Source of the DNA: Ignavibacteria bacterium
GTDB taxonomy: Bacteria > Bacteroidota > Ignavibacteria > UBA10030
DNA length: 34,520 nt
Direction: 5' to 3'
Assembly (NCBI GenBank): GCA_016873805.1
Contig: VGVZ01000031.1
Coordinates: 1-34,520, forward strand
Every line of letters begins with the position of its first letter. Position 1 is the stretch's first letter. Of the stretch, positions 4,634-31,715 are shown piece after piece. The notes beneath the pieces are model-generated. The model had not been told where the DNA came from and searched no databases. It worked only from the letters and a program-made list of their open reading frames with translations. A program made the position numbers and the translations under genes.

Positions 4634-5941
4634 TTACTTCATCAGAATCATGCTTTTCGAAATCCTCGACGACGCGGCCGAAATCGAGTAGTAGTAAATC
4701 CCACCCGGCAAATACTCGCCCGAAAACCGGATTTGATGCCGCCCTCCCTCCTGTTCACCATTGACCAGAGTCGAAATCTTCCGACCGAGAATGTCGTGCA
4801 CTTCGAGGAGCACGTGCGTTCGCTTCGGAAGATTATAGCCGATGATGGTAACGGGATTGAAGGGGTTTGGATAGTTCTGATGGAGATGGAATTCATCTGG
4901 AGTTTCGACTGCATTGTTGTCACGCGAAACCGATGTCACAGATTGAAAAGTCATCGCCAGAGCCGTCGCCAGCTTATCCCAGTTCTGCGGCGTGTCCCTC
5001 AGTTTTGTCATGGCTTGCTCAATATGGAGAAACCGGCCATTGGTGCTCGACGGGGAGATGGTGCACGGACTCGGGCTTCCGTTGATCAGCCGTCCCTGCG
5101 TGTTCGTCGTCCCCGCCAGCCGCGTCCATCCGATGTCGATATGCGGAATCTTGAACGTCAGCGTCGGATCGATGAGCAGGAGGTTCTGCCGGAGCACCAA
5201 AAGATGGTCGACATTGCCGGCGGACGGAGCCCTTGTGGTTCCATTGCTCATGATAATATCCGGATCACCATCCGTTTTGCCAAAGCCATGCATCTGAATC
5301 ACCACGAGTCCGGAGATCTCGCTGTTCATCACTTCGGTTGTCTTTTGAAACGTACCGTCCACCACATGTGCTTGATCAGAAATCCTGTACTGTTGTTCGG
5401 TTGAACCCGAGCACACGCTCGTCGTCCCCGAGCATCCACTGGCAATCGGACTATTACACCGATGCGCACCGCTGACGAAGAACGCGCGTGCACCCAGTTT
5501 CTTGTAGATGAAAAAGCCCTGCCTCCCCGTGTTCACATCGTTGAGCGGGTGCGGACTCTGAATGCTCACAACCGGTCTCTGACTGTTTGGATTGAAGACA
5601 AACATCCCCCAGTAGTTTGTCGAACCACTCTCCCGCTCAAGCAGATAGTGTGTTTCATGCGGCACCGCCGTCGTATCGATGAAGCGCACGACACGATACC
5701 CCAGCGTCTGCGACACCGCATGAGAATCAGACAAGTTTCCTCTGAGTAGATGAGAGATTGCCGTGCCCCACTGACTGAGCTGAGGGGCGGTGGGAGGCTG
5801 GTACTTGTTCGAAGATGCCTCCGTCGGCATCGAGGAGATATGACCGTCAACGCGGGCAGTGAGATCGCCGCTGATCGTTGTCTGCGCATGAAGCGATGAG
5901 AACAGCAGAGCGAGAACGAGAATGAACGGCCGACTACTCAT
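4634..5941 (-). CDS. Putative secreted metallo-hydrolase with T9SS sorting domain, end of PGA locus
   Basis: A 435-residue protein starting at ATG 5941 with a signal peptide (MSSRPFILVLALLFSSLHA, cleavage near A/Q). A longer TTG start at 6007 is less likely because the signal peptide would not be N-terminal. The last 85 residues are a T9SS type A-like sorting domain: QNYPNPFNPVTIIGYNLP, then DILGRK, then PGGIYYYSI. The central part carries SPHPLNDVNT, FVSGAHR, VIQMHGF and FLHIEQ, a spacing of His/Asp/Glu residues that recalls zinc amidohydrolases of the N-formylglutamate amidohydrolase/M14 type. That link is tentative. It is the last gene of the PGA gene run, after pgsW. A surface hydrolase that trims or releases gamma-linked polyglutamate is a plausible role but is inference. 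Confidence 0.75.
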   Translation of the reverse strand: MSSRPFILVLALLFSSLHAQTTISGDLTARVDGHISSMPTEASSNKYQPPTAPQLSQWGTAISHLLRGNLSDSHAVSQTLGYRVVRFIDTTAVPHETHYLLERESGSTNYWGMFVFNPNSQRPVVSIQSPHPLNDVNTGRQGFFIYKKLGARAFFVSGAHRCNSPIASGCSGTTSVCSGSTEQQYRISDQAHVVDGTFQKTTEVMNSEISGLVVIQMHGFGKTDGDPDIIMSNGTTRAPSAGNVDHLLVLRQNLLLIDPTLTFKIPHIDIGWTRLAGTTNTQGRLINGSPSPCTISPSSTNGRFLHIEQAMTKLRDTPQNWDKLATALAMTFQSVTSVSRDNNAVETPDEFHLHQNYPNPFNPVTIIGYNLPKRTHVLLEVHDILGRKISTLVNGEQEGGRHQIRFSGEYLPGGIYYYSISAASSRISKSMILMK

Positions 5942-6003
5942 TATTGTCCGGGAGAAGATAGATGTCCGTTGTGCTAGAGGTGGAAGTAGTTGAAAGAAAC
6001 TTC

Positions 6004-7056
6004 TCAAGTGCTTCGGTGATTTCGCGGTCGCAAGATCGCGACGGCTGCCCCCAACACGATCAGGGCAAGAACGACCGGTAGCCGCTCCACTCCGCGCATT
6101 TCAGATATCGGCATGAGCTCATCATCCGACAATTCCGTATGGTGCCGGGTAATCCTGTATGCTGTGGCGAGTTGTTTTACATTGAGGAAGTGAAACACGG
6201 GAATGCCCGCTTCGGCAATCCTCAAGAGCAATCCGCGATCACTGTCGTCGCACGAGACCATCGAGCGGTGGAGACCATTTGATATCGAGCTCGCGTGCCG
6301 GCAGCCTCCCAGTACCGACTGATTGCCTCCGATGTTGATCAACATAGCGATTTTCTCTTTCACAAACAACTCATATCGATGCTCAATCGATTCCTCCAGT
6401 GTCCGCGGGATGAAGAGTTCTGCGCCACACCGGTCGGCTGCGCGCAACAGTTGTGCAATGCCTTCTTCAGGAATGCCTCCCCCGGAGTCTCCCTCTCCAC
6501 CGAGCGTAACAAAGCTCGAGTGAGATTGCAGTCCCCCCCGATCGCACAGCCAGCGTTCCATATCGATCCACGTCGCCTCCGGCTGATTCGCTCCATACGT
6601 GGACGCTCCTAATGAACTGACGACCACCGCTCTGGCCCCGATTGTCTGGATCGCCGCTAGAGCGGATATCCCTGCCGCAGGGAATGAACCCGAGATCGTC
6701 ACCCCAACCGAAGAGGATGAGTCGATGCCGCATTCCAACAGCACGCGCGCAAACATTGCCGCAAAGAGGGGATTTGCCGACGTGACTTTCGCATCAAGCG
6801 ATCCGAGCGTCGTCGTGATGCAGGAATACTCTTCACCGAGCATTCCAGCATTCCCCGCAGATGAGCGAACATTCTTTTCCCGTTTCATTTGGTCGATCAT
6901 CTGAAACCATTCTGCGGCCTGAGCGGATGCCCTCCTCATCTTCTCCGCGTTCGGATATTCCCCTCGGTCTCTGAATGCGATCTCAACGATCGCGAGTAAC
7001 GCCATCGCAGTAGAGGCCATGACAACGAATCGTATGGTTCGGCCTGCAGAGGACAA
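6004..7056 (-). CDS. pgsW: Poly-gamma-glutamate system protein PgsW
   Basis: A 350-residue protein with an N-terminal membrane anchor (about residues 8-27) and a second hydrophobic helix close to the C-terminus (about 325-342), suggesting a periplasmic domain held at both ends. Sequence such as TTTLGSLDAKVTSANPLF, SFPAAGISALAA, NIGGNQSVLGG and PVFHFLNV is as I remember it for the family named poly-gamma-glutamate system protein, which is found beside pgsB and pgsC. Its biochemical role is not known to me. The start is TTG at 7056, supported by AGGAG 7 bases upstream. That Shine-Dalgarno sequence overlaps the TAG stop of pgsC, so translation of the two is probably coupled. PgsA/CapA is absent from the window and PgsW may take its place in export. 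Confidence 0.8.
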   Translation of the reverse strand: MSSAGRTIRFVVMASTAMALLAIVEIAFRDRGEYPNAEKMRRASAQAAEWFQMIDQMKREKNVRSSAGNAGMLGEEYSCITTTLGSLDAKVTSANPLFAAMFARVLLECGIDSSSSVGVTISGSFPAAGISALAAIQTIGARAVVVSSLGASTYGANQPEATWIDMERWLCDRGGLQSHSSFVTLGGEGDSGGGIPEEGIAQLLRAADRCGAELFIPRTLEESIEHRYELFVKEKIAMLINIGGNQSVLGGCRHASSISNGLHRSMVSCDDSDRGLLLRIAEAGIPVFHFLNVKQLATAYRITRHHTELSDDELMPISEMRGVERLPVVLALIVLGAAVAILRPRNHRST

Positions 7057-7066
7057 GAGCGTGCTC

Positions 7067-7498
7067 CTACGGTTGAAGGAGAAGGAGAACCAAATACACC
7101 GCGACGGTCACCACTCCAAGCGCAGAGAGTGTTGGTATCGGCTCCTGGCGGGACATTTCGTTCGCGATGAGTCCGGGAATCAAATAGCCGATGGAATCGA
7201 TATCCCACCGAAGGATGTCGAGCGGCTCGATCCATTGTTGGACGATCAGCTTCAGACAGAATCCGAGCAGAAGTGCCACCAGAAGTTTTCGCTTCCCATA
7301 GACCGCCAGCCGGCTCCCCAGAAATCCAAGGAGAAACCAGACGACGACTGCAAGCACCACTGTGGAAATGATTTTGGGCGGGTCATGAATGAATAGAGCG
7401 AGATATCCCGGTGCAATGACGCCACCCGGTGAGACACCGACCAGCTCATAGAAGAGAAATCCCAAGACAAGTCCGATCAATAGCGATTCAAGGATCAT
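7067..7498 (-). CDS. pgsC: Poly-gamma-glutamate biosynthesis protein PgsC/CapC
   Basis: A 143-residue integral membrane protein with four or five helices and the PgsC signature: VGVSPGGVIAPGYLALF near residues 20-36, a KRKLLVALLLGF segment, and GYLIPGLIANEMSRQ near 104-118. PgsC works with PgsB in ATP-dependent ligation of glutamate through gamma-amide bonds at the cytoplasmic membrane. Its length matches the family (about 150). The ATG overlaps the pgsB stop in an ATGA arrangement (7495-7498), so synthesis is coupled to pgsB. Its own stop lies 10 bases before pgsW. Confidence 0.92.
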   Translation of the reverse strand: MILESLLIGLVLGFLFYELVGVSPGGVIAPGYLALFIHDPPKIISTVVLAVVVWFLLGFLGSRLAVYGKRKLLVALLLGFCLKLIVQQWIEPLDILRWDIDSIGYLIPGLIANEMSRQEPIPTLSALGVVTVAVYLVLLLLQP

Positions 7499-8673
7499 GC
7501 GGCACCCTTTGCATCTTGACCTTGATTCCGAAGTGCCTCGGAAAGGCTCATCCCATCCCCCGCAATATTACCGAATCCAAACACTGACATATCGGAAGTC
7601 GCGAGGGAACACAGCTCTTCCCTCGCGCGCGCAATCTGCGCTCGAGACCAGCAGTAGATTTTGCTCCTGTCGACATTCTGCCTCGAGAGAACGCGCCGCG
7701 CGTACGGCACATGAGTCCCCGTCAGAACAATTCCCTTCAGCCCGGCAATCGTTGCGCACCACGCGGCGAATTCGGCCGTCCGAAGTGGCCGGTCGCGACG
7801 CGTGTTCAGGATGATCATACGATCTCGGTCCTCGCCAATCGCCTGGGTCCACTGTTCCAGAAACACTCTTGCAGAGTCGACATCGTTGACCGAGAAGCCG
7901 TTCACAAATGCGATATTCCTCCCTTCCCTGTCGAACCGGACAAGATAATCGCTTTGCCTTCTTGATTCTTCAAGAATTGCTTCGCGTATTCGGAGGGAAT
8001 CGAATCCGACCGCACGACAGACTGCAATGGCAACGGCAACATTTTCAGGGAATTCTGCGTGGAACAACTCAATCCCCTCAAGCTCCTCATGAGGATTCAC
8101 GGCAACGACGGTCGCTCGCTTCAGGTCGGCGAATCGACGAATGACCGACGCATGCTTCTCGTCAGCCGTCACCACGATGGCGCCTTCAGGAATGGCGGAG
8201 CAAATTGCTTCGACTCGTTCCTCGTCCGTTGTTCCCATCTGCTCACGATGATCATCCCGGATATTCGTGATAACATAGATCTGTGGTTGAAGAAGCCGCC
8301 CCTCGAGTCGCAGCAAATCCGGGGAAATCGACATACACTCGAGCACGAGAGAGTTGACACGTGTTCGTCCTCCCTTTCGAGTGATGCATATCTGTTCCTG
8401 GACGCGAGCGCGTCCGCGCCGACGAATGATCTCCTGTGAACCGTCCGGTTGGATTACTGTGGGAACGACACCGGTGATTTTGGCGAGCACGGGCAGACCG
8501 GACGATCGTAGACCGGCTGCGACATACCGGGTGACCGTCGATTTCCCGCGTGTGCCGTTGACAAGAATCCTGATCGGAATGCACGCGACGTGACGTCTCA
8601 GATCCACCGCTTCGATGAGAAGCAGCAGAAGGACGCCAAGCAGAAAGAGAAGTGATATGGTGAGCGTAGACAA
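7495..8673 (-). CDS. pgsB: Poly-gamma-glutamate synthase PgsB/CapB (ATP-dependent amide ligase)
   Basis: A 392-residue Mur-ligase-related enzyme that activates the gamma-carboxyl of glutamate with ATP and extends the PGA chain. It has an N-terminal membrane helix (about 4-21), the P-loop NGTRGKST at 39-46, LVLECMSISPDLL near 109-121 and ITNIRDDHREQMG at 135-147, all typical of PgsB rather than FolC or MurC-F. Length equals the Bacillus enzyme class. The start is TTG 8673. No ATG or GTG occurs in frame between it and the preceding gene, and the helix-plus-RRH entry matches the family N-terminus. No clear Shine-Dalgarno sequence is visible. It follows ggt by 71 bases and overlaps pgsC by 4. Confidence 0.93.
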   Translation of the reverse strand: MSTLTISLLFLLGVLLLLLIEAVDLRRHVACIPIRILVNGTRGKSTVTRYVAAGLRSSGLPVLAKITGVVPTVIQPDGSQEIIRRRGRARVQEQICITRKGGRTRVNSLVLECMSISPDLLRLEGRLLQPQIYVITNIRDDHREQMGTTDEERVEAICSAIPEGAIVVTADEKHASVIRRFADLKRATVVAVNPHEELEGIELFHAEFPENVAVAIAVCRAVGFDSLRIREAILEESRRQSDYLVRFDREGRNIAFVNGFSVNDVDSARVFLEQWTQAIGEDRDRMIILNTRRDRPLRTAEFAAWCATIAGLKGIVLTGTHVPYARRVLSRQNVDRSKIYCWSRAQIARAREELCSLATSDMSVFGFGNIAGDGMSLSEALRNQGQDAKGAA

Positions 8674-8744
8674 ATGTGGAAGAGGATGATCTGAATGTCT
8701 CGTTCGATTCCGTCGAAATCGCCGGAGTGGGACAGAGGCTGCAA

Positions 8745-10580
8745 CTAGAACCCGACCGCCATTCCCCCGCGCCTGATGTCTGCCGAACCGTGGTACGTTC
8801 CCGTTGCAGCATCAAAGAGCGTCACTTGGACGCCTCCAAAGAACAGATCGAATTCGCCATGCACTTCGATCTGGTGACCCATCGTTTTTAGCACTTCAAT
8901 TACTTTGGGATCGGTACGGGATTCGACATGCAGGTTATCATCGAGCTTCTGGCAGAAGAAGCGCGGGGCCAGATTCGCGTCGTCCACATTCATCCCGAAA
9001 TCGACGATATTGGAGATTACCTGCACCACGGTCGCAACGATCCTGGCCGCTCCGGGCGAACCAACGGCCATGAACGGTCTTCCATTCCTCAGAACAATCG
9101 TCGGCGCAATCGAACTTCTCGGCTGTTTCCCCGGTTCGAGGAAATTCCGCCGCGTCGACTCCGAGAAGTTCGTGCGGGCGTTGTTCATGAGAACTCCCGC
9201 AATTGTCAATCCCGAGCCGAAAAACGTCCCGAGTGTCTGCGTGAGGGAGACCACATTTCCTTCACCGTCCATAACGGACAAATGAGTCGTATGACCGCCG
9301 TCTGCCTCAGTCAAACGATCGAGTTGATCTTCACGCTGGTTCCCTCTCGAGTACGGGATACCTTGAACCGCCCGATGAAGCGGGAAAGCCGGCGCATCGG
9401 CGTAACGCTCCCCCTTGCGAACCGGGATCTGACTATTCGCCTCGTCGAAGGGGCTTGGGTTCCCTTCTTTCGTTTGTCGATATTCGCGCGGAACTGGTTT
9501 TGTCCGATCGATCTCATCGAAGCGCGACCGCGCGTATTGCTTTGAGAGTAACCCTTTCAGCGGAATTTGTTCAAATCGGGGATCAGCCAGGTGAGCCGAT
9601 CGATCGGCATACACGCGCCTCATGACCTCGACGGCAAGATGCAGACTCTTTACGGACTCGGCGAAATGTCCGATTTTCCCCACATCCTCGAATTCAAGCA
9701 TGTTCAACGCCTGGATAATCGACGCCCCTGCCTGCGGCGGACTTGCACTGACGATATCATATCCTCGATACGTTCCGCGGACAGGTTCAAGCACTTGTGA
9801 ATTGAAGTCGCGGAGATCTTCGAGCGTGATGATCCCCCTGCCGCGCACAATGCCTTCCACGATCGCTTCAGCTACGGGACCTTCATAGAATCCCGCACGT
9901 CCCCGTTCGGCAATCGCCCGCAGTGTCTTCCCAAGTTGCGGCTGAGAGAGTGTCTGTCCCTCAACCAGAGGAAACCCGTCGGGTATGTAGACCTCGGCTG
10001 TCGCGGGATCCTTCATGAGAAGATCAACGTGGTCGAGAATGATCTTTCCAAGAGTCTGATCGATCGCAAATCCTTCTTCCGCGTACCGGATCGCAGGCCC
10101 AAGGACCACCGGCAACGGGAGGGATCCGTAATCCTTCAGCGCGCGCGTCAAGGCATCGACCGTTCCCGGCACGAGAACTGCTTTTGCCGAAAGCCGGTCC
10201 TTCGAAGGTTCGTACTGTACATCACGGACCCGCTGGCCAGCGCGCTGATAGTAGTTGATGTACACGGCCTTTTGTTGCTTCCCGAGATAGATCAGCATCC
10301 CTCCTCCGCCGCCCAAACCGGAACCGTCGGGCTCGACAACACTGATCGCAAACGCTGCCGCCACGGCAGCATCGACCGCATTTCCTCCGCGCCGGAACAT
10401 TTCGATGGCCGCTTCGCTGGCGAGCGGATGGGCAGCGGCAACAATTCCGTTCTTTCCTGATGCTCCTCCCCCCTCGCCGACCATTCCCGTCGCCATGACA
10501 GGCAGAAGTGACAGCGAGAGGATGAGCCAGACTTTGAACGCACGATTCAGATGCACCAGACAGACCATTCGATTTCTCAT
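8745..10580 (-). CDS. ggt: Gamma-glutamyltransferase (possible CapD-like PGA-processing enzyme)
   Basis: An N-terminal nucleophile hydrolase of 611 residues that cleaves or transfers gamma-glutamyl groups. It is normally made as a proenzyme that cuts itself before a catalytic Thr. The N-terminal region holds AAAHPLASEAAIEMFRRGGN and the glycine-rich GSGLGGGGGM. The nucleophile is the first Thr of GHTTHLSVMDGEGN at about residue 431, and SPGAARI lies in the small subunit. The start is ATG 10580, with GGAGA 7 bases upstream and a signal sequence after it, rather than the GTG at 10634. Roughly 60 residues of polar sequence (from about KPVPREYRQ to GGH) precede the nucleophile, longer than I expect for the family. 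Next to pgsB and pgsC, a role in PGA anchoring or trimming (as CapD/PgsD) is likely. Confidence 0.93.
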   Translation of the reverse strand: MRNRMVCLVHLNRAFKVWLILSLSLLPVMATGMVGEGGGASGKNGIVAAAHPLASEAAIEMFRRGGNAVDAAVAAAFAISVVEPDGSGLGGGGGMLIYLGKQQKAVYINYYQRAGQRVRDVQYEPSKDRLSAKAVLVPGTVDALTRALKDYGSLPLPVVLGPAIRYAEEGFAIDQTLGKIILDHVDLLMKDPATAEVYIPDGFPLVEGQTLSQPQLGKTLRAIAERGRAGFYEGPVAEAIVEGIVRGRGIITLEDLRDFNSQVLEPVRGTYRGYDIVSASPPQAGASIIQALNMLEFEDVGKIGHFAESVKSLHLAVEVMRRVYADRSAHLADPRFEQIPLKGLLSKQYARSRFDEIDRTKPVPREYRQTKEGNPSPFDEANSQIPVRKGERYADAPAFPLHRAVQGIPYSRGNQREDQLDRLTEADGGHTTHLSVMDGEGNVVSLTQTLGTFFGSGLTIAGVLMNNARTNFSESTRRNFLEPGKQPRSSIAPTIVLRNGRPFMAVGSPGAARIVATVVQVISNIVDFGMNVDDANLAPRFFCQKLDDNLHVESRTDPKVIEVLKTMGHQIEVHGEFDLFFGGVQVTLFDAATGTYHGSADIRRGGMAVGF

Positions 10581-10634
10581 CTCATATTCTCCGCAATATT
10601 CACCATGCGGCACGCGGCCCATGTGTGCGAGCAC

Positions 10635-11192
10635 CTACTTGAACAGCTCCTGTAAAGGGCCTGAGGCATCGGCCATCTTCTCAACAAGGTGGACGGCAAT
10701 CTTCCTGCGCGCGGCAATGTTCGAGAAGAACTGATCCTCATCCCCCTGTTTGACAACGATCAGATGGCTCGCAGCTTCTGCGGCAAGCTTGTTGAAATCA
10801 TCCGATTGTTGACCTCGTCGCGCATTTCCGCCAAGATGCAGCATCAGGATCTTGATGTTCCTCTTTTTCGCTTCCGCGATAATCGACTGCGTACGTTTCA
10901 ATTCCTCTTCCCGACTGATCCCCGCCGCACCAAGTCCTTTTGAACTGTATCCCGGAACAATAATCAGGGTCTTGATGGACTCGAGATCCTTCGTGACTGA
11001 CTTGCTTTCCAGCCTTGCAGTCAGCTGTCCTTTCTTGCAAAGAATCGAGGCCATCGTGACATCGGCGCTCTGACCGGCCGAAGTAATGAGAATGGGCTGC
11101 TCGAATTTCACCTTGGTCTGCGCCGGAGTGTCCACGATGCTGAGAGCAGCAGCAAAGATACACGCCACGACAATAATCACTCGAATGTGCAT
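10635..11192 (-). CDS. Small exported protein of the PGA locus (possibly DUF6305 family)
   Basis: A 185-residue protein with a signal peptide (MHIRVIIVVACIFAAALS...) and one compact domain. It reads FEQPILITSAGQSADVTM, then TLIIVPGYSSKGLG, then NIKILMLHLGGNARRG, then HLIVVKQGDEDQFFSNIA, i.e. alternating hydrophobic strands and helices like a Rossmann-type or periplasmic binding fold. I believe this matches an uncharacterised family (DUF6305) but cannot confirm it here. The start is ATG 11192 with GGAGA 5 bases upstream. It lies between the M14-like gene and ggt in the same run. Binding of a PGA fragment, or a chaperone role for the permease, are guesses. Confidence 0.75.
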   Translation of the reverse strand: MHIRVIIVVACIFAAALSIVDTPAQTKVKFEQPILITSAGQSADVTMASILCKKGQLTARLESKSVTKDLESIKTLIIVPGYSSKGLGAAGISREEELKRTQSIIAEAKKRNIKILMLHLGGNARRGQQSDDFNKLAAEAASHLIVVKQGDEDQFFSNIAARRKIAVHLVEKMADASGPLQELFK

Positions 11193-11228
11193 AAAGTTCT
11201 CCGTGTTGAAGAAAGTCCCGCTTCGGTT

Positions 11229-12350
11229 CTACTTCAGAAACACCCCTACTCCTTGAGCGACAATTTCGTCATGATTCGGCAGGTTTCCAAGCAGAATACT
11301 TCTTTCCGGAAACTCCTCAGCGTACGCATCGAGAACGGCGCGCAGACTCTGCAGATGTCTCCCGACCCGCCGATCGAGGGGCTCACCATCGGAATGATAG
11401 GTGATGCGTATTTTCCCGACCTCCTTTGCTCGCCGGTATCGCAAATCCACTCCGCCGAGAAGAAGTTCGGCAGACGTCGGGCCCCGAAGCCGCCCTTGAA
11501 TTGGGTTGCTCGATTCCATAAGAAACGGATAGACATCCGTACGGTCTCCCCACTCTCTGTGACTTAATCCCCGAAAGTTTGGGGGAGAAAATTCCAGGGC
11601 AAACTCCAGATTCTCCAGTTCGAGATTGAGTATCGCAGCCGCAGCGATATCTTTTCCCTTCTCATGCGTCACCAACGCATTCACGATCGGAATCTCCGGC
11701 GATGCCTCATGAAAATCGAATGCCACCCGTACATTCTCCTGCTCGATGAGCTGCATGATGGCATAGCCGATGCGCTCAGTGAAAGAGCCGTCCGGGCGGC
11801 CCGGATATGATCGGTTGAGATTGCGCGTCTCCACGCCGGATAATCGCTGACCCGACGGCTGGTGAAGATATACCAGCGGATCCGGCCAATGATCCAGCGG
11901 ATTCGCTCCCCGCGAACCGAACCGAAACCATCGCTCTCCCGAGCCGGTCGAGATGGAAAACCGTTGCGGATATCCTTCCAGGGGATCTGTACAGGTAAAT
12001 CCGCTTCTGTTTGCCTGAGGTATGACGATCAAACGACCGCGGGAGACGGTGACATTCTCAATCAGAACGACGGCGGCCACGAATCCGGCCGGTTCGTTCG
12101 CGTGCGTCCCGCCCAACACGAGAACAGTTTCCCCTTCTTCTGATCCCTCAAGAAAAAAAACTGGAGTATCGCCGTTTGTATCGCGCAGATTCGGAAGGTA
12201 GTCGCTCAGACGTCCGACAGTCGTTACGCCTGGACCTGGAACGATCTTTTCCAGCTCATGCATCCGACGGAATTCCAGGGCAGCAATTGTCGCTCCAACA
12301 GCGGCGACAACCAAGAAGAGAATTGCTCGAATGCGGTGGCTCTCGATCAT
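11229..12350 (-). CDS. Membrane-anchored M14/aspartoacylase-like (AstE-type) zinc hydrolase
   Basis: A 373-residue protein with an N-terminal hydrophobic helix (about 8-26) and a zinc carboxypeptidase-like domain. Probable metal ligands are H83 and E86 in GGTHANEPAG and H214 in FDFHEAS. NLNRSYPG at 177-184 is the substrate-carboxylate-binding motif shared with succinylglutamate desuccinylase and aspartoacylase. Such enzymes release acyl groups or terminal residues from acidic amino acids. With ggt and pgsBC alongside, the substrate is likely a gamma-glutamyl or N-acyl-glutamate compound. This is inference. The start is ATG 12350, 7 bases after the stop of the 48-aa gene. Confidence 0.85.
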   Translation of the reverse strand: MIESHRIRAILFLVVAAVGATIAALEFRRMHELEKIVPGPGVTTVGRLSDYLPNLRDTNGDTPVFFLEGSEEGETVLVLGGTHANEPAGFVAAVVLIENVTVSRGRLIVIPQANRSGFTCTDPLEGYPQRFSISTGSGERWFRFGSRGANPLDHWPDPLVYLHQPSGQRLSGVETRNLNRSYPGRPDGSFTERIGYAIMQLIEQENVRVAFDFHEASPEIPIVNALVTHEKGKDIAAAAILNLELENLEFALEFSPPNFRGLSHREWGDRTDVYPFLMESSNPIQGRLRGPTSAELLLGGVDLRYRRAKEVGKIRITYHSDGEPLDRRVGRHLQSLRAVLDAYAEEFPERSILLGNLPNHDEIVAQGVGVFLK

Positions 12351-12357
12351 GACCCGT

Positions 12358-12504
12358 CTATTTGATATGGAGGATGCGCAGGATCAATGGGATGACGATC
12401 ATCACGAGGGCGATCTGGATATCCCACTTCTTCTCCTGAAACAACTCAACGAGAACGAGGATGACAACAATCAATACTACTACGATATGAAGCCAATGCA
12501 GCAT
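12358..12504 (-). CDS. 48-aa two-helix membrane protein between permease and hydrolase
   Basis: A short frame from ATG 12504 to TAG 12358-12360 encodes 48 residues: one hydrophobic helix starting MLHWLHIVVVLIVVILVLVE, a short polar turn FQEKKWD, and a second helix IQIALVMIVIPLILRIL. TTGGAG lies 5 bases before the ATG, a good ribosome binding site. It has 18 bases to the permease upstream and 7 to the metallohydrolase downstream, so it fills an otherwise unexplained gap in a tightly packed run. It could be a small subunit of the TRAP-like permease (in TRAP systems the small DctQ protein is larger, four helices) or a regulatory micropeptide. The gene is easily missed because of its size. Confidence 0.75.
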   Translation of the reverse strand: MLHWLHIVVVLIVVILVLVELFQEKKWDIQIALVMIVIPLILRILHIK

Positions 12505-12522
12505 GGGAACTCCAATAATCTC

Positions 12523-13788
12523 TCAATACAATGATCGAACCTGATCGGCAAAGATGAGCATCGCGATACCAACGATGATTGCGAGAATCACCGGCACGAT
12601 GTTCCCCCTGAGTATGCGAAAATAATTCTTTTCCTCTACCAGTTGTCCTGCGAAAACGGTCAGGAGCATCGGCGGCGGCATCAAATCTCCGAGACTGGCA
12701 ATGAGGCAGATGGCCGACGTGACAACGATTTCATTCTGACCAAGAAATGCATACACCAGCGGTACACCCAGCACCGAAACCGCCGTGTAGGCCGACCCGA
12801 ACGCCGGCAGGATAAGGGCAACACCGAGATAGAGATACGCTTCAGGCAGTTGAAGGGCGCTCACGGCGATGAAACCGCGCACACCGGTGAGCGTCATGAT
12901 CTGGACAAACATGCCGACGCCGACGAGGATCGCGAGAATGGGCGTCGCCGCGCGGATCGCTTTTCGGGATAAGGATAAAAGTTCGATTCGTTCTCCTGTT
13001 CCAAACGCCGAGAGGGTACCGATCACGAAGATGAGCGGGACGCCGATATCGGGAATCCATGCGGGAGATACTCGAATTCCAGTCATTAGTCCCACAACCA
13101 CAATGATCGGTACGAAGAGCTTCCAGCCGTGTTTTTTGAAGACCGGCTCAGGGAGCTTCGCAATCACTTCATCAATCCGAATCTTTCGGATGAAGCGAAT
13201 CCGAAAGTACATCGCCGTCACGATCGCGAGCGGAACAGAAGCCAACAGCAGCGGAATCTCGAATCCGATGTACGGCATATCGACTCCCGCGCCTACGATC
13301 ATGACGGGAATATTGATCGGCGGCGCGATCTCTCCATAAACTGCCGACATCGCCACAAACGCACCGGCCGCATAACGAGGCATTCCCATGGCAACTAAAG
13401 CCGGCGCGACCATCGCCCCCGTTGTCAGAATGCAAGCCGAAGAGAGTCCCGTGAGCATCCCGGGAAACATGATGAATAACGCGACGAGGATCATCAGGAG
13501 CGACGGCCAGCGATAGAGGGAGGTCACCATCGCGTGGCTGATCGTCCCGAGCGCCCCGGTTGCCTCAATGACTTTCATGAATACCATCGCCGCTGCGATG
13601 ATGAGAATCGGTTCGAGGAATCCGAACGATCCTTCGACAAGATGCCGTACCGGAACGCCGTACCCCGCCACAAGCGCTCCAACGACCGATCCGAACGCGA
13701 GCGCAACCCCCGCCGGAAGTTTCAGAACGAAAATCCCGACGGCAAATGTCGCCAACATCGAAAGCAGGACAATTAATTCAATCGGCAT
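12523..13788 (-). CDS. TRAP transporter large-subunit-like (DctM-type) permease
   Basis: A 421-residue membrane protein with about eleven or twelve helices and two halves that each carry the re-entrant Pro-Pro signature of the DctM/ion-transporter superfamily: AVYGEIAPPINIPVMIVG in the first half and SLGDLMPPPMLL in the second. Such permeases move carboxylates with sodium or protons. No DctP binding protein or standard DctQ is seen. The only small membrane partner is the 48-aa protein downstream. The start is ATG 13788, with GGAGG three bases before it. It is the first gene after a 146-base gap that follows the PorV gene, so a promoter for the PGA section may lie at 13789-13934, though I see no clear consensus there. 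Uptake or export of glutamate or gamma-glutamyl compounds is inference. Confidence 0.85.
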   Translation of the reverse strand: MPIELIVLLSMLATFAVGIFVLKLPAGVALAFGSVVGALVAGYGVPVRHLVEGSFGFLEPILIIAAAMVFMKVIEATGALGTISHAMVTSLYRWPSLLMILVALFIMFPGMLTGLSSACILTTGAMVAPALVAMGMPRYAAGAFVAMSAVYGEIAPPINIPVMIVGAGVDMPYIGFEIPLLLASVPLAIVTAMYFRIRFIRKIRIDEVIAKLPEPVFKKHGWKLFVPIIVVVGLMTGIRVSPAWIPDIGVPLIFVIGTLSAFGTGERIELLSLSRKAIRAATPILAILVGVGMFVQIMTLTGVRGFIAVSALQLPEAYLYLGVALILPAFGSAYTAVSVLGVPLVYAFLGQNEIVVTSAICLIASLGDLMPPPMLLTVFAGQLVEEKNYFRILRGNIVPVILAIIVGIAMLIFADQVRSLY

Positions 13789-13934: not shown

Positions 13935-14960
13935 CTAGAATCCGACGGACAACGAGAACACATGGATCGGACCGAGCCGATGCAGTTCCGAAAAGGCGTA
14001 GTCGACGCCAAACGAGGCGCTCCCAGCCACCTCCCAGCGGAGTCCAAGTCCATAGCTCCAGTTCCGCACATCGTCGTTGAACTGGTAGCCGGATCGGAGC
14101 GCAACGAGATTGCGCCACTTGTACTCTACGCCGACGCTGGCGAATTCCGGTCCGTCGTTGGGATGATTTGCATCGACGGCGAGGATGATAGAATTTGATT
14201 CGTTTTGCATTGCGGCGTCGGATCCGCCGAGCAACTCCCAGCCAATACCGACGCGGAAATTTGTCGGCAGCTCCCACGATTCCGTTCCAAGGAAGCTCAC
14301 TGCCCCGACGTTGACTGCACTATTTGGATTCGGATCATAGGTGCGCCTTAAGTCACGCCCCTCAAGCTTCAGCGTTGTTCCGAAGTTCGAAAAGGCCATG
14401 CCGATCTTGATCCCCTGGTAGCCGGTCCTCAGCGTCGTGCCGATATCAAGTGCGACGGCGGAGGCCGATTCGTTGTAGATCTGCTGGCTGACATACTTGA
14501 CTGTTCCGCCGATCGTGAAGAAATCGACAAGTCGAACGCCGTACGAGACTCCAATTGCCACATCGGAAGCGCTGTAGAAATTCCCGGTCCCCTTCGGCTG
14601 CGTTTCTGTGGTGATCTCGATATCGTCCATGGAGAGAATCGTCGCACCGATTCCGACGGCATGATCTCCCGACACCGGCAGGATGATGGCAAAGTACTGA
14701 TGCTTAATGTCGGCAAACCAGTTCGTATGCGATGCGTAGAGCGAAAGGGAGGGAATGTCGACAATTCCTGATGGATTCCAATAGAGGGCGCTGGGGTCTC
14801 GCGCGATCCCGACCGCGGCACTCCCCATCCCCATCGAACGTCCTCCCACACCGATCTTAAGAAACTGCGCCGCGCTTGTTCCGGCTTTGTTCGATTCCTG
14901 AGCCTGCCCCAATGCGAGCATAGCGGCGATAAGCAATGCAACAAGAGATGAAGTTTTCAC
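13935..14960 (-). CDS. PorV/PorQ-family outer-membrane beta-barrel protein
   Basis: A 341-residue protein with signal peptide (MKTSSLVALLIAAMLALGQA) and the PorV/PorQ start AAQFLKIGVGGRSMGMG, then ARDPSALYWNPSGIV near residues 54-68. The rest is alternating beta-strand sequence ending in Phe, as in outer-membrane barrels. PorV-type proteins shuttle T9SS cargo or act as outer-membrane partners of it. The start is GTG 14960, 6 bases from the stop of the 952-aa protein upstream, so it is co-transcribed with it. The TonB receptor, large T9SS-type protein and PorV-like trio appears as a set, suggesting one surface complex. Confidence 0.88.
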   Translation of the reverse strand: MKTSSLVALLIAAMLALGQAQESNKAGTSAAQFLKIGVGGRSMGMGSAAVGIARDPSALYWNPSGIVDIPSLSLYASHTNWFADIKHQYFAIILPVSGDHAVGIGATILSMDDIEITTETQPKGTGNFYSASDVAIGVSYGVRLVDFFTIGGTVKYVSQQIYNESASAVALDIGTTLRTGYQGIKIGMAFSNFGTTLKLEGRDLRRTYDPNPNSAVNVGAVSFLGTESWELPTNFRVGIGWELLGGSDAAMQNESNSIILAVDANHPNDGPEFASVGVEYKWRNLVALRSGYQFNDDVRNWSYGLGLRWEVAGSASFGVDYAFSELHRLGPIHVFSLSVGF

Positions 14961-14966
14961 GGTCGC

Positions 14967-17825
14967 CTACTTTATTAGTGCAAATTTGCCGACATGGCGG
15001 TTCTTGTTCGGATCTTCCACAACATAGACATAGATGCCGAATGCGAGTGCTTGATTCCAGTCACTGAGAAGATTCCACCTCAGGGATCCCTCACCGCTCT
15101 TGTGGTCGAGCGTCTTGACGAGAGAACCGGCAATCGTGTAAATGTAGATCGTACACTCCGGTGGGAGGTACATGAAGCGCAGTTCCCGGACGTTCTGCAT
15201 CGATTCGTATCGGGAGGTGACGACATACGGATTTGGCACGACCCGGATTTGACCCAGATCAATCAGCGCCTCGTCGAAGGCGGGGGGCGAGAACTCAAAT
15301 TCAAATTGGTCATTCGCCTTCAGAGCGTTGAAGCTGGTGATGTTGATCGTCGTGCCCGTAACGGGCGGGGTATTGGGGAGATCACCCGGAGCATTATTGA
15401 TGGCGATTTGGTACGCGAATTCCTGGATTCTCGTTGCCGGATTCGGTGCACCAATCGCCGGGGCAGGAGACGGATACGGAATTCTGGTGATAAAGATGAG
15501 CTCCCCCTCATCCCACTGGTTGTTGTTGTTCAAATCCTGAATTTCAAAACAAACCTGCACGTTTGTCGTCGTGTTCCAGACGGAAAACGGTACCTGATAC
15601 CGCGCAACCGATCCCGCCAATCCCCATGTGTACGCAATCGTGGGCGTGCCCGTGAATCGGATGGCGTAACTGGCGGTTCGCGATGCGGTGTCGGCTGAGG
15701 CATTTTCGGTATAGGAAACATACCACGACTTGTCTGAGCTAAGATTCGCGATCCCCAGCACATTCTTCCCCGTCTGATCGGTAATCGATTTCAATCCTCC
15801 GATACGCGGATCGGTGGCCACTTTCAGCTTGAAGCCGTCAACCACAGGAACATTGTCGCGGTTGACTTCTCGTGCTGAAAGAACGACGCCGCCCCCCTGA
15901 CCGAGGCGAGTCACTGTCAGCCGTGTCGCCGGAGTGCCGTGAAACGTGACACGATACGGAACGAATTTCAGCGCCTTTTCATCCACAATGTCGAGAGTGA
16001 GAACGCCCGCGCCTGTACCGCTGGTCTGTGTGAGCGACTTCAGCAGCGCAGGAACCTTTCCCTGAGCAACGGGAGACGGAGTCACGTGGACAAAGTTATG
16101 CGTATGAGGCCCGTCTCCTCGCGGCGATTCCAGAGATTGCAGACTGGCTCTTCCCCGATCGTACGAGACCATCGTGTACGAATACGTGATGCCGTTGACA
16201 ACAGTCGTGTCGACCCACGTGTGTCGCAATCCTGTGTCGTCGCCGAGATAGATCAACGGATTGATCGGATCGTTCCCCTTGATGCCATTCGCCAGATCGA
16301 ATTGCGCGATCGGAACGTAACCCGCTGTTCGCCCTTTGGCGTCGGTGATCGCCTTCCCCCATGTGACGCCTCCGTCTTCGCTCCGATAGATCTTGTATCC
16401 TTCAAAACTCATCTGCCCTGTCAGCGGATCGATGAATGATTCTGGAGTGTCCTCCCAGTACAACGTCACACGTCGATCACCAGTGACACCTTTGAGGCGT
16501 GGAGCCGGAGGTGCCTTTGGACCGGTGAACTTTACGTCAAAGAGCCCCTTCGCGCGCCAGATCAAGTCGTTGTACTCTTTGTCGTCATCACCAACCATGA
16601 CCGCTATCGAAAACTTCACGGTGTCGTTGGGAGCCATGTCAAAGGGTCCGGTGGCGGCAATCCACACCAGATCCTCTTTCGCGGTAATCAGTGAAACATC
16701 GTCGATCTTTGGATTCGATCCGTGAAAGAAACTCGCGGCGGAGCCGGCCACATTTGGATTGGTCGGATCGCTCGAGATGATTGCCCAGAGGACCCGATCA
16801 TCGGTTGGTCCGGGATCAAGAAAATAGTGGAACGATGTAATCCCCAGATTCTTCGGTGTTTCCACGAAAGCAGTGCCGAACGTATACGGCTCGAGCCGGC
16901 CGAGAGGATTTGGCCGATTCGCGCCATCGATGTCCTTCTGGCCGATTGCCGTCACCTTTGATCCGTTCGCCAGCGTCGAATCGAGCCAGAGCAATTTCTC
17001 CTCGCCGTGGTCGCTGCAGTCCGGATCTTTGTAGAATCCCGAGTACACCCCGCTGAGTGCCTTGCCGCTTTTGTTGACGATGAAGAACTCGTACATGAGG
17101 ATCTTGTCCGCAAACGAGCTGGCGTAGTTGTACGACATCTCCTGAATTTCGATACCGATCGGCGGTCCTTGCTGATTGTTCTTGTCCGTGTACACCATAT
17201 AGATGTCCCGATCAGAAGCGAACTCACCTTCAATCTGCGCGCCGGTCTTCGCATCACGCCTCCAGAGTCCCGGCCAGAATGCTGTCCCGGTCGCATCGAC
17301 AGGCCACGTTGCCGGCAAATCGCTGTGTGCGAGGTACGGTACCTGGTTGTTCCACTTCAGCTCGGGATGCGGATTGGGATCAAGAGCGGCGTTGTAATGC
17401 GTCTTTCCGTACGATCCGTCCTTCGCCAGCCAATCCTCGTTGTTGTTGTCCGTCCACCCGTCAATCACATTTCCCTGATTTCCGTTCTTCGGATTCTCTT
17501 TGACCGCAAAGAAGATCGAAAAATCGTCACAGAGTCCAACGAAATTCTCACGCGGATACCGGAAATCAAAAAACGTATCGGTCGGGCGGTTTCCCACATC
17601 CTCAAAACGAGTGTCGGTAATCTGGCCGTAGTTCATCGTGAGATTCTGCAGTTGTCCGAGCGTCTGCACGCCGACCGCCTCATCGGCAAATCCCAATGCT
17701 TTCGCACTCTTTCGCGCATTCTTTCCAGGCCCGTCCGTGTCTTGCGTCGATATTGATGTCGTTCCCAGAAAGAACAACAGGGATACGGTGAGAGGGACAG
17801 AGAGGAGTTTATGATGTGTTTTCAT
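14967..17825 (-). CDS. Large secreted protein with fibronectin type III-like domain and T9SS-like C-terminal domain
   Basis: A 952-residue protein with a signal peptide (MKTHHKLLSVPLTVSLLFFLG...). Residues around 435-570 look like a fibronectin type III fold: APPAPRLKGVTGDRRVTLYW, then GYKIYRSEDGG, then YSYTMVSYDRG. The end reads LGQIRVVPNPYVVTSRYE, then IYIYTIAGSLVKTL, then GIYVYVVEDP and HVGKFALIK, a T9SS type A-like sorting domain. No catalytic motif is recognised. The N-terminal half is rich in Asp, Asn and aromatic residues. The gene lies 17 bases after the TonB receptor and 6 before the PorV-like gene. A role as a surface lipoprotein-like partner of the receptor is plausible but not shown. 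Confidence 0.85.
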   Translation of the reverse strand: MKTHHKLLSVPLTVSLLFFLGTTSISTQDTDGPGKNARKSAKALGFADEAVGVQTLGQLQNLTMNYGQITDTRFEDVGNRPTDTFFDFRYPRENFVGLCDDFSIFFAVKENPKNGNQGNVIDGWTDNNNEDWLAKDGSYGKTHYNAALDPNPHPELKWNNQVPYLAHSDLPATWPVDATGTAFWPGLWRRDAKTGAQIEGEFASDRDIYMVYTDKNNQQGPPIGIEIQEMSYNYASSFADKILMYEFFIVNKSGKALSGVYSGFYKDPDCSDHGEEKLLWLDSTLANGSKVTAIGQKDIDGANRPNPLGRLEPYTFGTAFVETPKNLGITSFHYFLDPGPTDDRVLWAIISSDPTNPNVAGSAASFFHGSNPKIDDVSLITAKEDLVWIAATGPFDMAPNDTVKFSIAVMVGDDDKEYNDLIWRAKGLFDVKFTGPKAPPAPRLKGVTGDRRVTLYWEDTPESFIDPLTGQMSFEGYKIYRSEDGGVTWGKAITDAKGRTAGYVPIAQFDLANGIKGNDPINPLIYLGDDTGLRHTWVDTTVVNGITYSYTMVSYDRGRASLQSLESPRGDGPHTHNFVHVTPSPVAQGKVPALLKSLTQTSGTGAGVLTLDIVDEKALKFVPYRVTFHGTPATRLTVTRLGQGGGVVLSAREVNRDNVPVVDGFKLKVATDPRIGGLKSITDQTGKNVLGIANLSSDKSWYVSYTENASADTASRTASYAIRFTGTPTIAYTWGLAGSVARYQVPFSVWNTTTNVQVCFEIQDLNNNNQWDEGELIFITRIPYPSPAPAIGAPNPATRIQEFAYQIAINNAPGDLPNTPPVTGTTINITSFNALKANDQFEFEFSPPAFDEALIDLGQIRVVPNPYVVTSRYESMQNVRELRFMYLPPECTIYIYTIAGSLVKTLDHKSGEGSLRWNLLSDWNQALAFGIYVYVVEDPNKNRHVGKFALIK

Positions 17826-17842
17826 ATACAGGTCTGCCTCGA

Positions 17843-20593
17843 TCAGAAGTCAACAAAGAAGCCGAATCGAAGTGCGCGGCGCGGACCGACACTTCTCGGA
17901 TTTGCTTGACGGTCCTGTGTGAAGATCGACGTCGGACCTTGCGTCCACGGTTCACCCGTGTGTGTCCACACCCGGACAGTGTTCAACGCATCGAGCACAT
18001 TCTCCGCGTCGAAGTATGCGGTCAGGCGGGTTCCGGCGATCCGAAATTCCCTGGAGACCTTTATGTCGAGCATGTTCGTCCAGGGCCGCCGGGCGCTGTT
18101 CTTGTCGGGAACAATGTTCGATTCTTCAGCCGCACGCGATGACGGTGTATACGGCAAACCGCTTCCGGAGGTGAAGATCGCGGAGAGTGAAAACTGTTCC
18201 AGCGGATGAATGCCGAAGAACTCCGGACCGAAATCTTCCGGCAACCGCACGATGAGCGTTGCGTTGATCTTGTGCCTCTGATCAAAATCGAGAGGGAAAT
18301 TCCGGTTCGGCCTCAGATGCGCTGTCTCTTCTCTGTATGAACTGTACCCTTCGGTCGGATCAGATTCATTTCCAAGCGCGTAGAGAAGCGAATACGTCAC
18401 ACGCGCGGCATAGGAGTCGCTGAATCTCTTGTCCAGCGTCAGATCGATCCCTTGCACGCGGCCGTAGTCGGCATTCGTGAAGATCGTGTAGTCTCTCCCG
18501 ACGAAGTAGTAGTAACTCGAAATAAGGTTGGTAATATCTTTCGAATATGCCGTGAGATTCACCGCCCAATCACGTGCAAGCTGTTGCTGCAAACCCACCT
18601 CATACGAGACGGTCTTCTCCGGCTTCAGACCTGGATTGCCAACGAGAGCGTCGTTCACAAGAAGATCGTTCAACGCATCGTTCCGGAAGAGATCATAGAA
18701 GGTTGGAATCTGAAAGAAATGTCCGTACGCGAAATGAATCGATGTGCGATCAGAGATCGGATGCGCCATCCCGATTCTTGGACTTACCTGCATGTGCGGC
18801 TTCACTCGCTCGCGATCGACGGCGACATACTCCGACGTGCCCGTCGGCGTCGTCCGGACGGTCAGGATGTTTGCAACGTCGGGATAGGCCGTGGTCTGCG
18901 GGCTGAAGTAGTCGACCCGCAATCCGACCTTCAACACCATAAACGTATATTCGATCTTGTCCTGCACGTACCACGATATCTCCAGCGGCTTATGCGTGAA
19001 GAACTCCAAATTCGCGCGTGGCGGCATACCAATCCGATGCCGGAAGATCTCGTGCGTCTTGATTTCAAATCCGCTCCGGATCTGGTGATGATTGTCGATC
19101 TGACTCTCGATGTTTCCCTTGGCGAGATATTGAACACTCTCCGTTTTTCTCCAATACCGGACATCGCCAAAGCGGAAATTGCTTTCGACGCCGCCGACGT
19201 AGAGTCGTGTCAGATAGTCGCTCGAAGCGAGTGTTCCGGTTGTTTCGTCAAACACAACTGTTCTGCCGGGCACAATCTCACTGTTGAAGTCGTAAATACG
19301 TGCAACAGCCACGTCGTAGAACGTACTCGATGAGAGCACATGCCGGGCTGAGACTGCCTGCCGATTGTAGGCGGAATGCTCGATCGGGTAGCTCCCCTTC
19401 CGTCCGAGTGCATCGAGCCCCGAATCAAACCATCGCCAGTACTTGTACTCATGATTGTACGTCTGGCGATGATCGTTAGACCAATCGGCTGACGTCCGCA
19501 GCGTAAAGAGCGGGCTCAGCGGATAGGTCAGCTTGAAGGTAGCAGATCGATACAGCGAATAGCCGAAGGGAAGCTGGCTATCTTCGTTTTTCATCCGCCC
19601 GGTCGCAAAGAACTTGATTCTGGGAAGGAACGGTACGGGGCCCGAAATGTTGCCGCTCCATGTACCGAGTGCATGGACCAGGAGGTACGGTTTCGCGTAC
19701 GGATCATCAAGCACGCTCACGTAGTCATAGGCAGATGTCCCGTCCGGTTTCCGAACGGCATCGAGATATCGTTGCTGTTGATCGGGTGGCAGGTTTCGAA
19801 TGTCGGACCGGTCAAGGTTCCAGTCTTTCTTGTGATACGGAGAGGGATTGATTTGAGCCGATTCATAGTAGAATCGACCGGCGTATTTGTCGCCTCCATC
19901 TTTGGTATAGATGGAGACGACTCCGTCCGCAGCGTTCCCGTATTCAGCATCAAACGTTCCGAGGTGCGCCTGCAACTCCTGCACGTTCTCCACCTCCATC
20001 TCACCTGCGAGAGTTCTGCCGAACGGATTCGTGACGGGGACCCCGTCAATCTGGTACACCATTCCTCCCGCGCGGCCGCCTCGGATGTGGAGCGTTCCTT
20101 CCGTCCCGCGCGTCACTCCTGCCTGCAGGGTCAGTATTTCCCCAATTTCCTGCAACCGCAAATCGCGCAAGACCGTTGATCCTTCCACAATCGTCCGTGT
20201 TGCGGTTCGATCCTTCTGCACCACCGGCTGTTCGGCTGTCACGACAATTTCCCGACCAAGTTCGATCGCGGAACTGGAGAGCGCTGCGTTGAGTTCTGTC
20301 GTGACATCGACCCGAATACGTACATCCTGGAAGACGACAGTCTGGTACCCCACCATACTGATCCGCACTTCGTAGCTTCCCGGAGGCACATTGTTGATGA
20401 AATAGAATCCTGTCGCATCCGTCGCCGCGCCGAGAGTCGTTCCCGCGATGACGATATTGACACCGATCAATCGTTCCCTCGTCTCCGCGTCATAAACAGT
20501 ACCGGCCAGCTTTCCCGTTTCTCCCGCGTGGATCAGTATCGGAGTCGTGAGGAGGAGCAACAGAACAAGAACTGAACGTGTTCGCATGATCAT
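17843..20593 (-). CDS. TonB-dependent receptor, SusC-like with carboxypeptidase-regulatory-like domain
   Basis: A 916-residue outer-membrane receptor. After a signal peptide, residues about 25-115 form a carboxypeptidase D regulatory-like domain (GKLAGTVYDAETRERLIGVN, DATGFYFINNVPPGSYEVR). A plug domain follows (LRDLRLQEIGEILTLQAGV, LHIRGGRAGGMVYQIDGVPV), and a long beta barrel ends in the aromatic terminus GFFVDF. Such receptors import large or scarce substrates through the outer membrane with energy from TonB. The substrate is unknown. Position at the head of the run leading to PGA genes makes a gamma-glutamyl peptide or polymer worth testing. The start is ATG 20593, or ATG 20587 two codons later. 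No strong Shine-Dalgarno sequence is seen. Confidence 0.92.
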   Translation of the reverse strand: MIMRTRSVLVLLLLLTTPILIHAGETGKLAGTVYDAETRERLIGVNIVIAGTTLGAATDATGFYFINNVPPGSYEVRISMVGYQTVVFQDVRIRVDVTTELNAALSSSAIELGREIVVTAEQPVVQKDRTATRTIVEGSTVLRDLRLQEIGEILTLQAGVTRGTEGTLHIRGGRAGGMVYQIDGVPVTNPFGRTLAGEMEVENVQELQAHLGTFDAEYGNAADGVVSIYTKDGGDKYAGRFYYESAQINPSPYHKKDWNLDRSDIRNLPPDQQQRYLDAVRKPDGTSAYDYVSVLDDPYAKPYLLVHALGTWSGNISGPVPFLPRIKFFATGRMKNEDSQLPFGYSLYRSATFKLTYPLSPLFTLRTSADWSNDHRQTYNHEYKYWRWFDSGLDALGRKGSYPIEHSAYNRQAVSARHVLSSSTFYDVAVARIYDFNSEIVPGRTVVFDETTGTLASSDYLTRLYVGGVESNFRFGDVRYWRKTESVQYLAKGNIESQIDNHHQIRSGFEIKTHEIFRHRIGMPPRANLEFFTHKPLEISWYVQDKIEYTFMVLKVGLRVDYFSPQTTAYPDVANILTVRTTPTGTSEYVAVDRERVKPHMQVSPRIGMAHPISDRTSIHFAYGHFFQIPTFYDLFRNDALNDLLVNDALVGNPGLKPEKTVSYEVGLQQQLARDWAVNLTAYSKDITNLISSYYYFVGRDYTIFTNADYGRVQGIDLTLDKRFSDSYAARVTYSLLYALGNESDPTEGYSSYREETAHLRPNRNFPLDFDQRHKINATLIVRLPEDFGPEFFGIHPLEQFSLSAIFTSGSGLPYTPSSRAAEESNIVPDKNSARRPWTNMLDIKVSREFRIAGTRLTAYFDAENVLDALNTVRVWTHTGEPWTQGPTSIFTQDRQANPRSVGPRRALRFGFFVDF

Positions 20594-31704: not shown

Positions 31705-31715
31705 TTTTGACGATT

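Follow-up and report, generated by a model that had tools for sequence, protein, structure and literature searches.

A conserved module of four genes, coding for a DctM-like permease, a 48-aa membrane protein (mem48), an AspA-like metallohydrolase, and a DUF6305 protein, adjoins the synthase-type genes pgsB, pgsC, and pgsW in an Ignavibacteria bacterium (NCBI GenBank assembly GCA_016873805.1). The window analyzed here is one entire contig (VGVZ01000031.1; 34,520 nucleotides) from a 3.2-Mb genome in 60 contigs (99.13% complete), and the cassette occupies positions 4634 to 13788. We give even chances to a single make-trim-retrieve operon, in which a gamma-glutamyl polymer produced by PgsBCW would be trimmed, and its products re-imported, by the module.

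The original prediction named nine genes, and all of them lie on the minus strand with curated family scores that agree. In order of transcription, these are DctM (12523..13788; TRAP large-subunit family PF06808, 43.2 bits against a cut-off of 23.8; 11 hydrophobic segments [Kyte-Doolittle]); mem48 (12358..12504; two hydrophobic stretches, kept in four relatives); AspA, a membrane-anchored member of the AstE/AspA metallohydrolase family (11229..12350; PF24827, 36.4 bits against 25; N-terminal hydrophobic segment); the exported DUF6305 protein (10635..11192; PF19823, 167.1 bits against 25); Ggt, of the gamma-glutamyltransferase family (8745..10634; TIGR00066, 436.9 bits against 357.85; catalytic Thr, altered donor site); PgsB, the gamma-glutamyl ligase subunit (7495..8673; TIGR04012, 261.9 bits against 222.7); PgsC, the membrane subunit (7067..7498; TIGR04011, 108.1 bits against 96.45; 4-base overlap with pgsB); PgsW (6004..7056; TIGR04332, 280 bits against 100); and a zinc-hydrolase-like protein with a type 9 secretion system (T9SS) tail (4634..6007). 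PgsB and PgsC thus both belong to the Pgs/Cap synthases by curated NCBIfam cut-offs. From DctM through the T9SS protein, neighboring genes are spaced by −4 to 71 bases, and two pairs overlap by 4 bases. The predicted boundaries hold for these nine genes, but the same-strand run extends upstream through genes for a TonB-dependent receptor, a large exported protein (OMprot), and a PorV/PorQ-family protein, transcribed in that order ahead of DctM (13935-20593; gaps, counted outward from DctM, of 146, 6, and 17 bases) and probably part of the same operon. Promoter-like sites (7 against 9.7 expected) and terminator-like sites (20 against 14.5 expected) were near chance, and an Rfam scan gave no match; the case for an operon therefore comes from gene spacing and from the order being conserved.

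PgsW (TIGR04332) was found in 11 of 296 genomes drawn phylum-wide, 27 of 98 genomes of the order, and 40 of 391 sampled from the class (38 over cut-off); the corresponding counts for DUF6305 (PF19823) were 7 (6 over cut-off), 16, and 23 (22 over cut-off). Within the order, 14 of the 16 genomes with DUF6305 also carried PgsW, the exceptions being G377 (82% complete) and G378 (contig ends inside pgsB); within the class, 19 of 22 did, with G156 as a third exception. Loci were scored by tblastn using the twelve window proteins, five added references, and six references for a diverged gene order (class C, below), and six duplicate loci (shared sequence verified) were removed before counting; neighborhoods were not fetched for every PgsW genome of the class, and G476 and G565 (under cut-off) were left out. 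Scanning the named genomes with a single PgsW protein returned no locus, and an 11-row alignment returned 21, among them the six duplicates, which were contigs of G genomes already covered. Among the resulting 54 nonredundant PgsW loci, 20 have DUF6305, 29 have an exported protein that we call B1, none has both, and five have neither (L044, L086, L104, and L133, cut by contig ends, and L049, without PgsB). DctM accompanies all 20 PgsW loci with DUF6305, AspA 19 (the miss being a contig end), and Ggt 13, in agreement with the prediction that PgsW neighborhoods would include the permease and hydrolases. Counted from DUF6305 instead, 25 nonredundant loci contain DctM in 24, AspA in 24, mem48 in 23 (tblastn), PgsB in 21, PgsW in 20, and Ggt in 18; some misses are contig ends, DctM is missed in a contig fragment (L092), and mem48 of L089 was found by phmmer.

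The module occurs in three gene orders. Class A, the window type, reads DctM-mem48-AspA-DUF6305-Ggt-PgsB-PgsC-PgsW, and the diverged class C reads PgsB-PgsC-PgsW-DUF6305-DctM-mem-AspA in six genomes that belong to the same family as the window (L090, L091, L093, L095, L096, and L097, the last cut in DctM). The third is on plasmid p1 of Cetobacterium somerae (Fusobacteriota; cultured, fish gut; NZ_CP143320.1, 403968-411375), where the same eight core genes are annotated as ggt-DUF6305-TRAP large permease-47 aa-succinylglutamate desuccinylase-pgsB-pgsC-pgsW, the 47-aa protein being the counterpart of mem48. Identity between window and Cetobacterium is 49% for AspA, 49% for DUF6305, 45% for DctM, 38% for mem48, 36% for PgsC, 35% for Ggt, 32% for PgsW, and 30% for PgsB. 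In a PgsB tree, class A falls on one side of a branch (100/98) and class C on another (100/99), with Cetobacterium as a separate long branch beside the B1 class; in a quicker PgsW tree, Cetobacterium branches outside a grouping of C with B1. Several tree rows are long-branched; as they stand, the trees place the classes apart, so the module accompanies several deep synthase lineages. That the genes are neighbors through shared regulation or history, with no common substrate, seems very improbable: the evidence for a joint function is gene neighborhood, sequence, and predicted fold, which leaves room for such a reading, but the linkage has held through three orders and two phyla at 30 to 49% identity between window and Cetobacterium. 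As a separate observation, L090 (G338 contig 111) holds a pair of diverged DctM/mem/AspA/DUF6305 modules in a span of ~10 kb. Only one of them is accompanied by PgsBCW, and DUF6305 of that PgsBCW-linked module matches in two pieces and may be broken or misassembled.

The other PgsW context has B1 (~300 aa; 29 PgsW loci in Bacteroidota, Zixibacteria, and Omnitrophota) and, in 23 of these 29, B2 (~380 aa, weak beta-barrel matches), both located after PgsW. A B1 profile matched none of 22 module-bearing genomes and was positive in 10 of 10 B1-type control genomes, four of which had supplied profile rows. We infer that B1-B2 would be an outer-membrane export route absent from the cassette genomes.

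Within the module, mem48 is 44 to 52% identical across four relatives (alignment), and AspA residues H83xxE86, R180, H214, and E279 are the same in all 20 sequences aligned. The HxxE/NxNR/H/E set of the AstE/AspA metallohydrolases is therefore intact, which we take to comprise the HxxE...H zinc motif, NxNR, and the catalytic Glu. Like TRAP transporters (DctP-DctQ-DctM), the window has a DctM-family large permease, but it has mem48 and DUF6305 beside it, and in the Pfam scan of ten genes (E values up to 0.1; the rest of the genome was not searched) DctP and DctQ families had no match; mem48 and DUF6305 perhaps take the place of those two. Distance correlations of PgsB with DctM (0.80) and AspA (0.89) lacked a species-tree control, and we draw nothing from them.

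The T9SS tail of the protein at 4634..6007 clears the cut-off of NCBIfam TIGR04183 (26.0 against 23) and narrowly misses that of Pfam PF18962 (26.3 against 27). Across eight homologous domains, H111, D115, H140, D169, H172, H198, and E288 (alignment numbering) are invariant. A model of the domain (residues 43-368; pLDDT 81, pTM 0.85) gave fold matches (VIA) to 2odf (Z 12.5), the N-formylglutamate amidohydrolase 2q7s (Z 11.8), the phage poly-gamma-glutamate hydrolase 3a9l (Z 10.7), and 5onj (Z 9.8), with 21dc within the range of Z 12.5 to 9.8; 2odf and 2q7s are also the structures nearest the phage enzyme PghL after PghP in the accessible text of PMC6506827. The predicted fold is thus that of a zinc hydrolase, close to the N-formylglutamate amidohydrolase and to the poly-gamma-glutamate hydrolase of phage. 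Pfam at E values up to 0.1 gave only the T9SS and FlgD tail matches, with none to PF05908 or PF05013, and PDB sequence searches with profiles of the T9SS hydrolase, DUF6305, and PgsW returned nothing meaningful. Elsewhere, the T9SS hydrolase domain sits inside longer proteins (L099:9113-13453 and L025:15429-17771); that of L099 has an M23 peptidase domain and that of L025 apparently does too (by eye), which hints at peptidoglycan besides polymer.

In the alignment, Ggt T449 coincides with the residue that opens the small subunit in solved GGT structures, and the catalytic Thr is present in 21 of 21 Ggts aligned. The donor site is altered: aligned to E. coli GGT, R114 is replaced by Y129 and D433 by N489. 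Among 17 Bacteroidota module Ggts, Asn occupies the D433 position in all and Tyr the R114 position in 16, the remaining one (L100) being doubtfully aligned there, and Ggts near the B1-type loci L023, L024, and L130 retain R and D. In E. coli GGT, D433N abolishes transpeptidation and keeps 82% of hydrolysis (accessible text of PMC8062742). The altered Ggt may either bind its donor differently or be weak on classic substrates.

Full-length PgsB scores 227 to 267 bits in window-type and class C loci (16 genomes) and 390 to 460 bits in B1-type loci (9 genomes). PgsW models as an alpha/beta domain flanked by two long hydrophobic terminal helices (pLDDT 89.8, pTM 0.86), for which Foldseek found nothing in the PDB at E ≤0.001 and VIA at best Z 9.0 over 115 residues; kinship to some family absent from that comparison is possible. 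A PgsW search of phages gave no match. Kinship of PgsW to DUF6305 was considered, and a profile comparison probability of 8.8% made no case for it. CapA/PgsA (PF09587) had no match in the window's own genome, at the completeness and contig number given above, using a search that was positive in 7 of 14 control genomes. PF09587 matched in 22 of the 30 genomes searched, the own genome being among the 30, and 15 of 19 module-bearing genomes tested have a CapA-family match, always on a different contig from the module, although in fragmented assemblies separate contigs are no proof of distance and PF09587 also matches in E. coli, so that a match is no proof of PgsA. The genome-wide search thus did not refute the prediction of a PgsA-less locus, a trait that is less surprising than it appeared: B. 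subtilis without pgsBCA, given pgsBC, makes 26 g/L of poly-gamma-glutamate (PGA) with a D/L ratio of 5/95 (accessible text of PMC6029982), which also suggests an L-rich polymer here. Lack of PgsA was dropped as the main novelty, given the CapA family in those 15 genomes and a PgsA that is dispensable in B. subtilis. In two B1-type loci, CapA-family domains lie in ORFs of >1000 aa, ~8 kb from PgsW (G055:C38:37402-38214 and G247:C15:70679-71482).

In the make-trim-retrieve operon that we propose for this didermic bacterium, on the Ignavibacteria/Chlorobi side of Bacteroidota, PgsB and PgsC would polymerize glutamate at the inner membrane, with PgsW replacing PgsA/CapA. Because the B1-B2 pair, read as an export route, is missing, much of the polymer probably remains in the periplasm or crosses it. 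Long chains would be cut by the surface T9SS hydrolase, the altered Ggt and the AspA-like enzyme anchored in the membrane would finish the oligomers in the periplasm, and DctM, the 48-aa protein, and DUF6305 would bring glutamate, or else short gamma-glutamyl products, back into the cytoplasm; the TonB receptor may carry outside fragments in. More tentatively, and with considerable doubt, we suggest a self-contained PGA cycle of double-membraned bacteria, in which a PgsW-type synthase would lay down a glutamate reserve kept largely in the envelope and a new kind of minimal TRAP-like importer (DctM, the 48-aa protein, and DUF6305 as binding subunit) would bring it back. The importer would be fed by the anchored AspA-like gamma-glutamyl hydrolase and the altered Ggt, joined in some members by a glutamate racemase that is exported.

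Several observations weigh against the make-trim-retrieve operon. The fold of the T9SS protein is broad, with carboxypeptidases at Z ~10 and amidases and succinylglutamate desuccinylase similar, and its best Foldseek match (E 3.9e-5) is a putative metallopeptidase. No Ggt was seen in the fetched stretch of the class C cassettes or of L098, and the own genome has two further GGTs, one of them canonical. The altered Ggt could simply be a poor enzyme, since B. subtilis GGT D445N loses 90% of activity and changes at the Arg site (E. coli R114L/D, B. licheniformis R109F) leave no or almost no activity (accessible text of PMC8062742). Cetobacterium Ggt retains the canonical R/D donor residues, and Cetobacterium PgsB scores 381.9 bits; together these indicate that low PgsB scores and altered Ggt are traits of the Bacteroidota lineage and not part of the logic of the cassette. 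The exchange of module for B1-B2 may represent very few evolutionary events, and DctM may feed glutamate into synthesis and not reclaim it. As a candidate mark of the whole cassette, the altered Ggt residues were ruled out by the Cetobacterium enzyme. Genome G156 adds to these points: its module locus (DctM, mem48, AspA, DUF6305, and Ggt) also includes genes for an N-formylglutamate-amidohydrolase-like protein and for a glutamate-racemase homologue that is exported, but neither PgsB nor PgsW was matched anywhere in this genome, so the module is not only for polymer made by the same cell and can plausibly serve uptake of gamma-glutamyl matter generally. The make, trim, and retrieve pathway first predicted is therefore supported in part: the grouping is kept in three orders and two phyla, but 29 of 54 PgsW loci have other partners, so that the module is one of two contexts of PgsW and no general property of it.

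G156 favors a rather doubtful alternative, in which the locus is one of utilization first: the TonB receptor, surface hydrolase, AspA, Ggt, and permease would harvest foreign gamma-glutamyl polymers in the manner of a polysaccharide utilization locus, and PgsBCW, as an attached storage or capsule function, would not supply the substrate. The synthase is likewise not adjacent to the first module of L090, to that of L094, or to that of L092, a contig fragment, with class C elsewhere in those genomes. An AspA tree places module copies that lack an adjacent synthase within class A, and the AspA rows closest to the window are of this kind. Such loci also hold exported racemase homologues and N-formylglutamate-amidohydrolase-like genes. 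Glutamate-racemase homologues occur in 4 of 25 DUF6305 loci, and the two scored pass Pfam PF01177 but lie under the curated glutamate-racemase cut-off; both cysteine motifs are present in L029 and L123 and only the first in L090 and L094. One of three N-formylglutamate-amidohydrolase-like proteins scored passes the PF05013 cut-off. Set against utilization are PgsB in 21 of 25 DUF6305 loci and the diverged module that has its own PgsBCW in another order in six genomes, a pattern that points to a direct connection with synthesis. On its own account, the racemase homologues beside the module in L029 (4895-5881) and L123 (15128-16108) have apparent signal peptides, and an exported racemase seems unusual.

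The outer-membrane neighbors bear on both sides of the same question. In the window, these are the PorV/PorQ-family outer-membrane protein (13935..14960, minus strand; NF033709, 205.7 bits against a cut-off of 90; same order in L026), OMprot (14967..17825, minus strand; no full-length paralogue in its own genome, the next best match being 51.6 bits over ~85 residues), and the TonB-dependent receptor (17843..20593, minus strand; SusC-like N-terminus), which at 53.8 bits is under the curated SusC-family cut-off (TIGR04056, 368.25) and so is not assigned to the SusCD type. At least one of the three is beside 7 of 25 DUF6305 loci, window counted, as utilization would have it; OMprot is also beside the module in L026, L094, L103, L031, and L123, and the TonB receptor in L026, L027/L031, and L094, while L123 unites the cassette, racemase, N-formylglutamate-amidohydrolase-like, PorV, and OMprot genes. 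None was seen in the fetched stretch of the other 18, Cetobacterium included (some stretches are short), and relatives of OMprot and TonB also occur in B1-type L106/L043 and of TonB in B1-type L107, so these neighbors are not module-specific, which counts against utilization.

TRAP-type permeases import acidic solutes, which favors a further, unlikely reading as supply for synthesis: DctM, mem48, and DUF6305 would import free glutamate for PgsB with nothing recycled, AspA and the T9SS protein would act on other N-acyl substrates, and Ggt would anchor or release polymer like CapD. The sole NCBIfam match of AspA, the deacetylase DoeB (40.7 bits, far under the cut-off of 402.7), fits this, as does the GGT-family CapD, which anchors PGA in Bacillus (accessible text of PMC8062742). 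Supply for synthesis sits poorly with a permease module also found without PgsBCW, and, judged by the same text, the R114Y/D433N pair of the Bacteroidota Ggts does not resemble the donor site of a transpeptidase.

Elsewhere in the window, positions 25546-27791 (plus strand) encode one protein, which we take to be thioredoxin/YyaL-like, in two overlapping ORFs (25546-26583 and 26580-27791), resembling a frameshift or assembly error. At 31707-32544 (plus strand), a small nucleotidyltransferase-like ORF overlaps a HEPN/DUF86-like ORF, presumably an MNT-HEPN toxin-antitoxin pair. Near the contig end, 358-3291 (plus strand) encodes a 977-aa helicase-like protein that matches a phosphorothioation restriction enzyme model weakly (19.7 bits against 600).

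Poly-gamma-glutamate is known mainly from the capsules and slime of Bacillus, and Fusobacterium nucleatum is reportedly cited, from Candela et al. 2009, as the first Gram-negative producer; few tests have addressed the use of PgsB and PgsC by double-membraned bacteria. Four poorly understood proteins (DUF6305, the 48-aa protein, the AspA-like enzyme, and PgsW) gain a shared context through the module, which also divides PgsW loci into two classes, and its presence in cultured Cetobacterium somerae makes make-and-reclaim testable by gene removal. Within the open-licence literature, a scope that most subscription papers fall outside, no mention of TIGR04332 or DUF6305 was found, nor a description of the cassette among the matches listed, where the string "pgsw" had unrelated uses only. 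For Cloacimonadota, PGA synthesis has been proposed with CapB, CapC, and CapA in an arrangement that differs from the window (accessible text of PMC13082233, 2026).

The window resembles Bacillus PgsBCA(E)/CapBCA with PgdS/CapD/Ggt in that PgsB and PgsC pass curated models and a GGT-family gene lies in the operon; its genome has PgsW and no CapA/PgsA match, and the window adds permease, DUF6305, AspA-like, and T9SS hydrolase genes. In B. anthracis, we take capD to lie likewise in the cap operon. With phage PghP/PghL and N-formylglutamate amidohydrolase, the T9SS protein shares its predicted fold and, putatively, a conserved H/D/H/E set; the likeness is at the fold level and does not extend to a PF05908 or PF05013 match. 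The Cetobacterium somerae p1 locus, which shares the eight core genes, differs in its gene order, its canonical Ggt donor residues, and a listed stretch with no T9SS hydrolase. Closest in the synthase itself are the PgsB-PgsC-PgsW-B1-B2 loci, which share the three synthase genes in the same order; none of those loci carries the DUF6305, DctM, or AspA of the window, and they have a secreted B1, with B2 in most.

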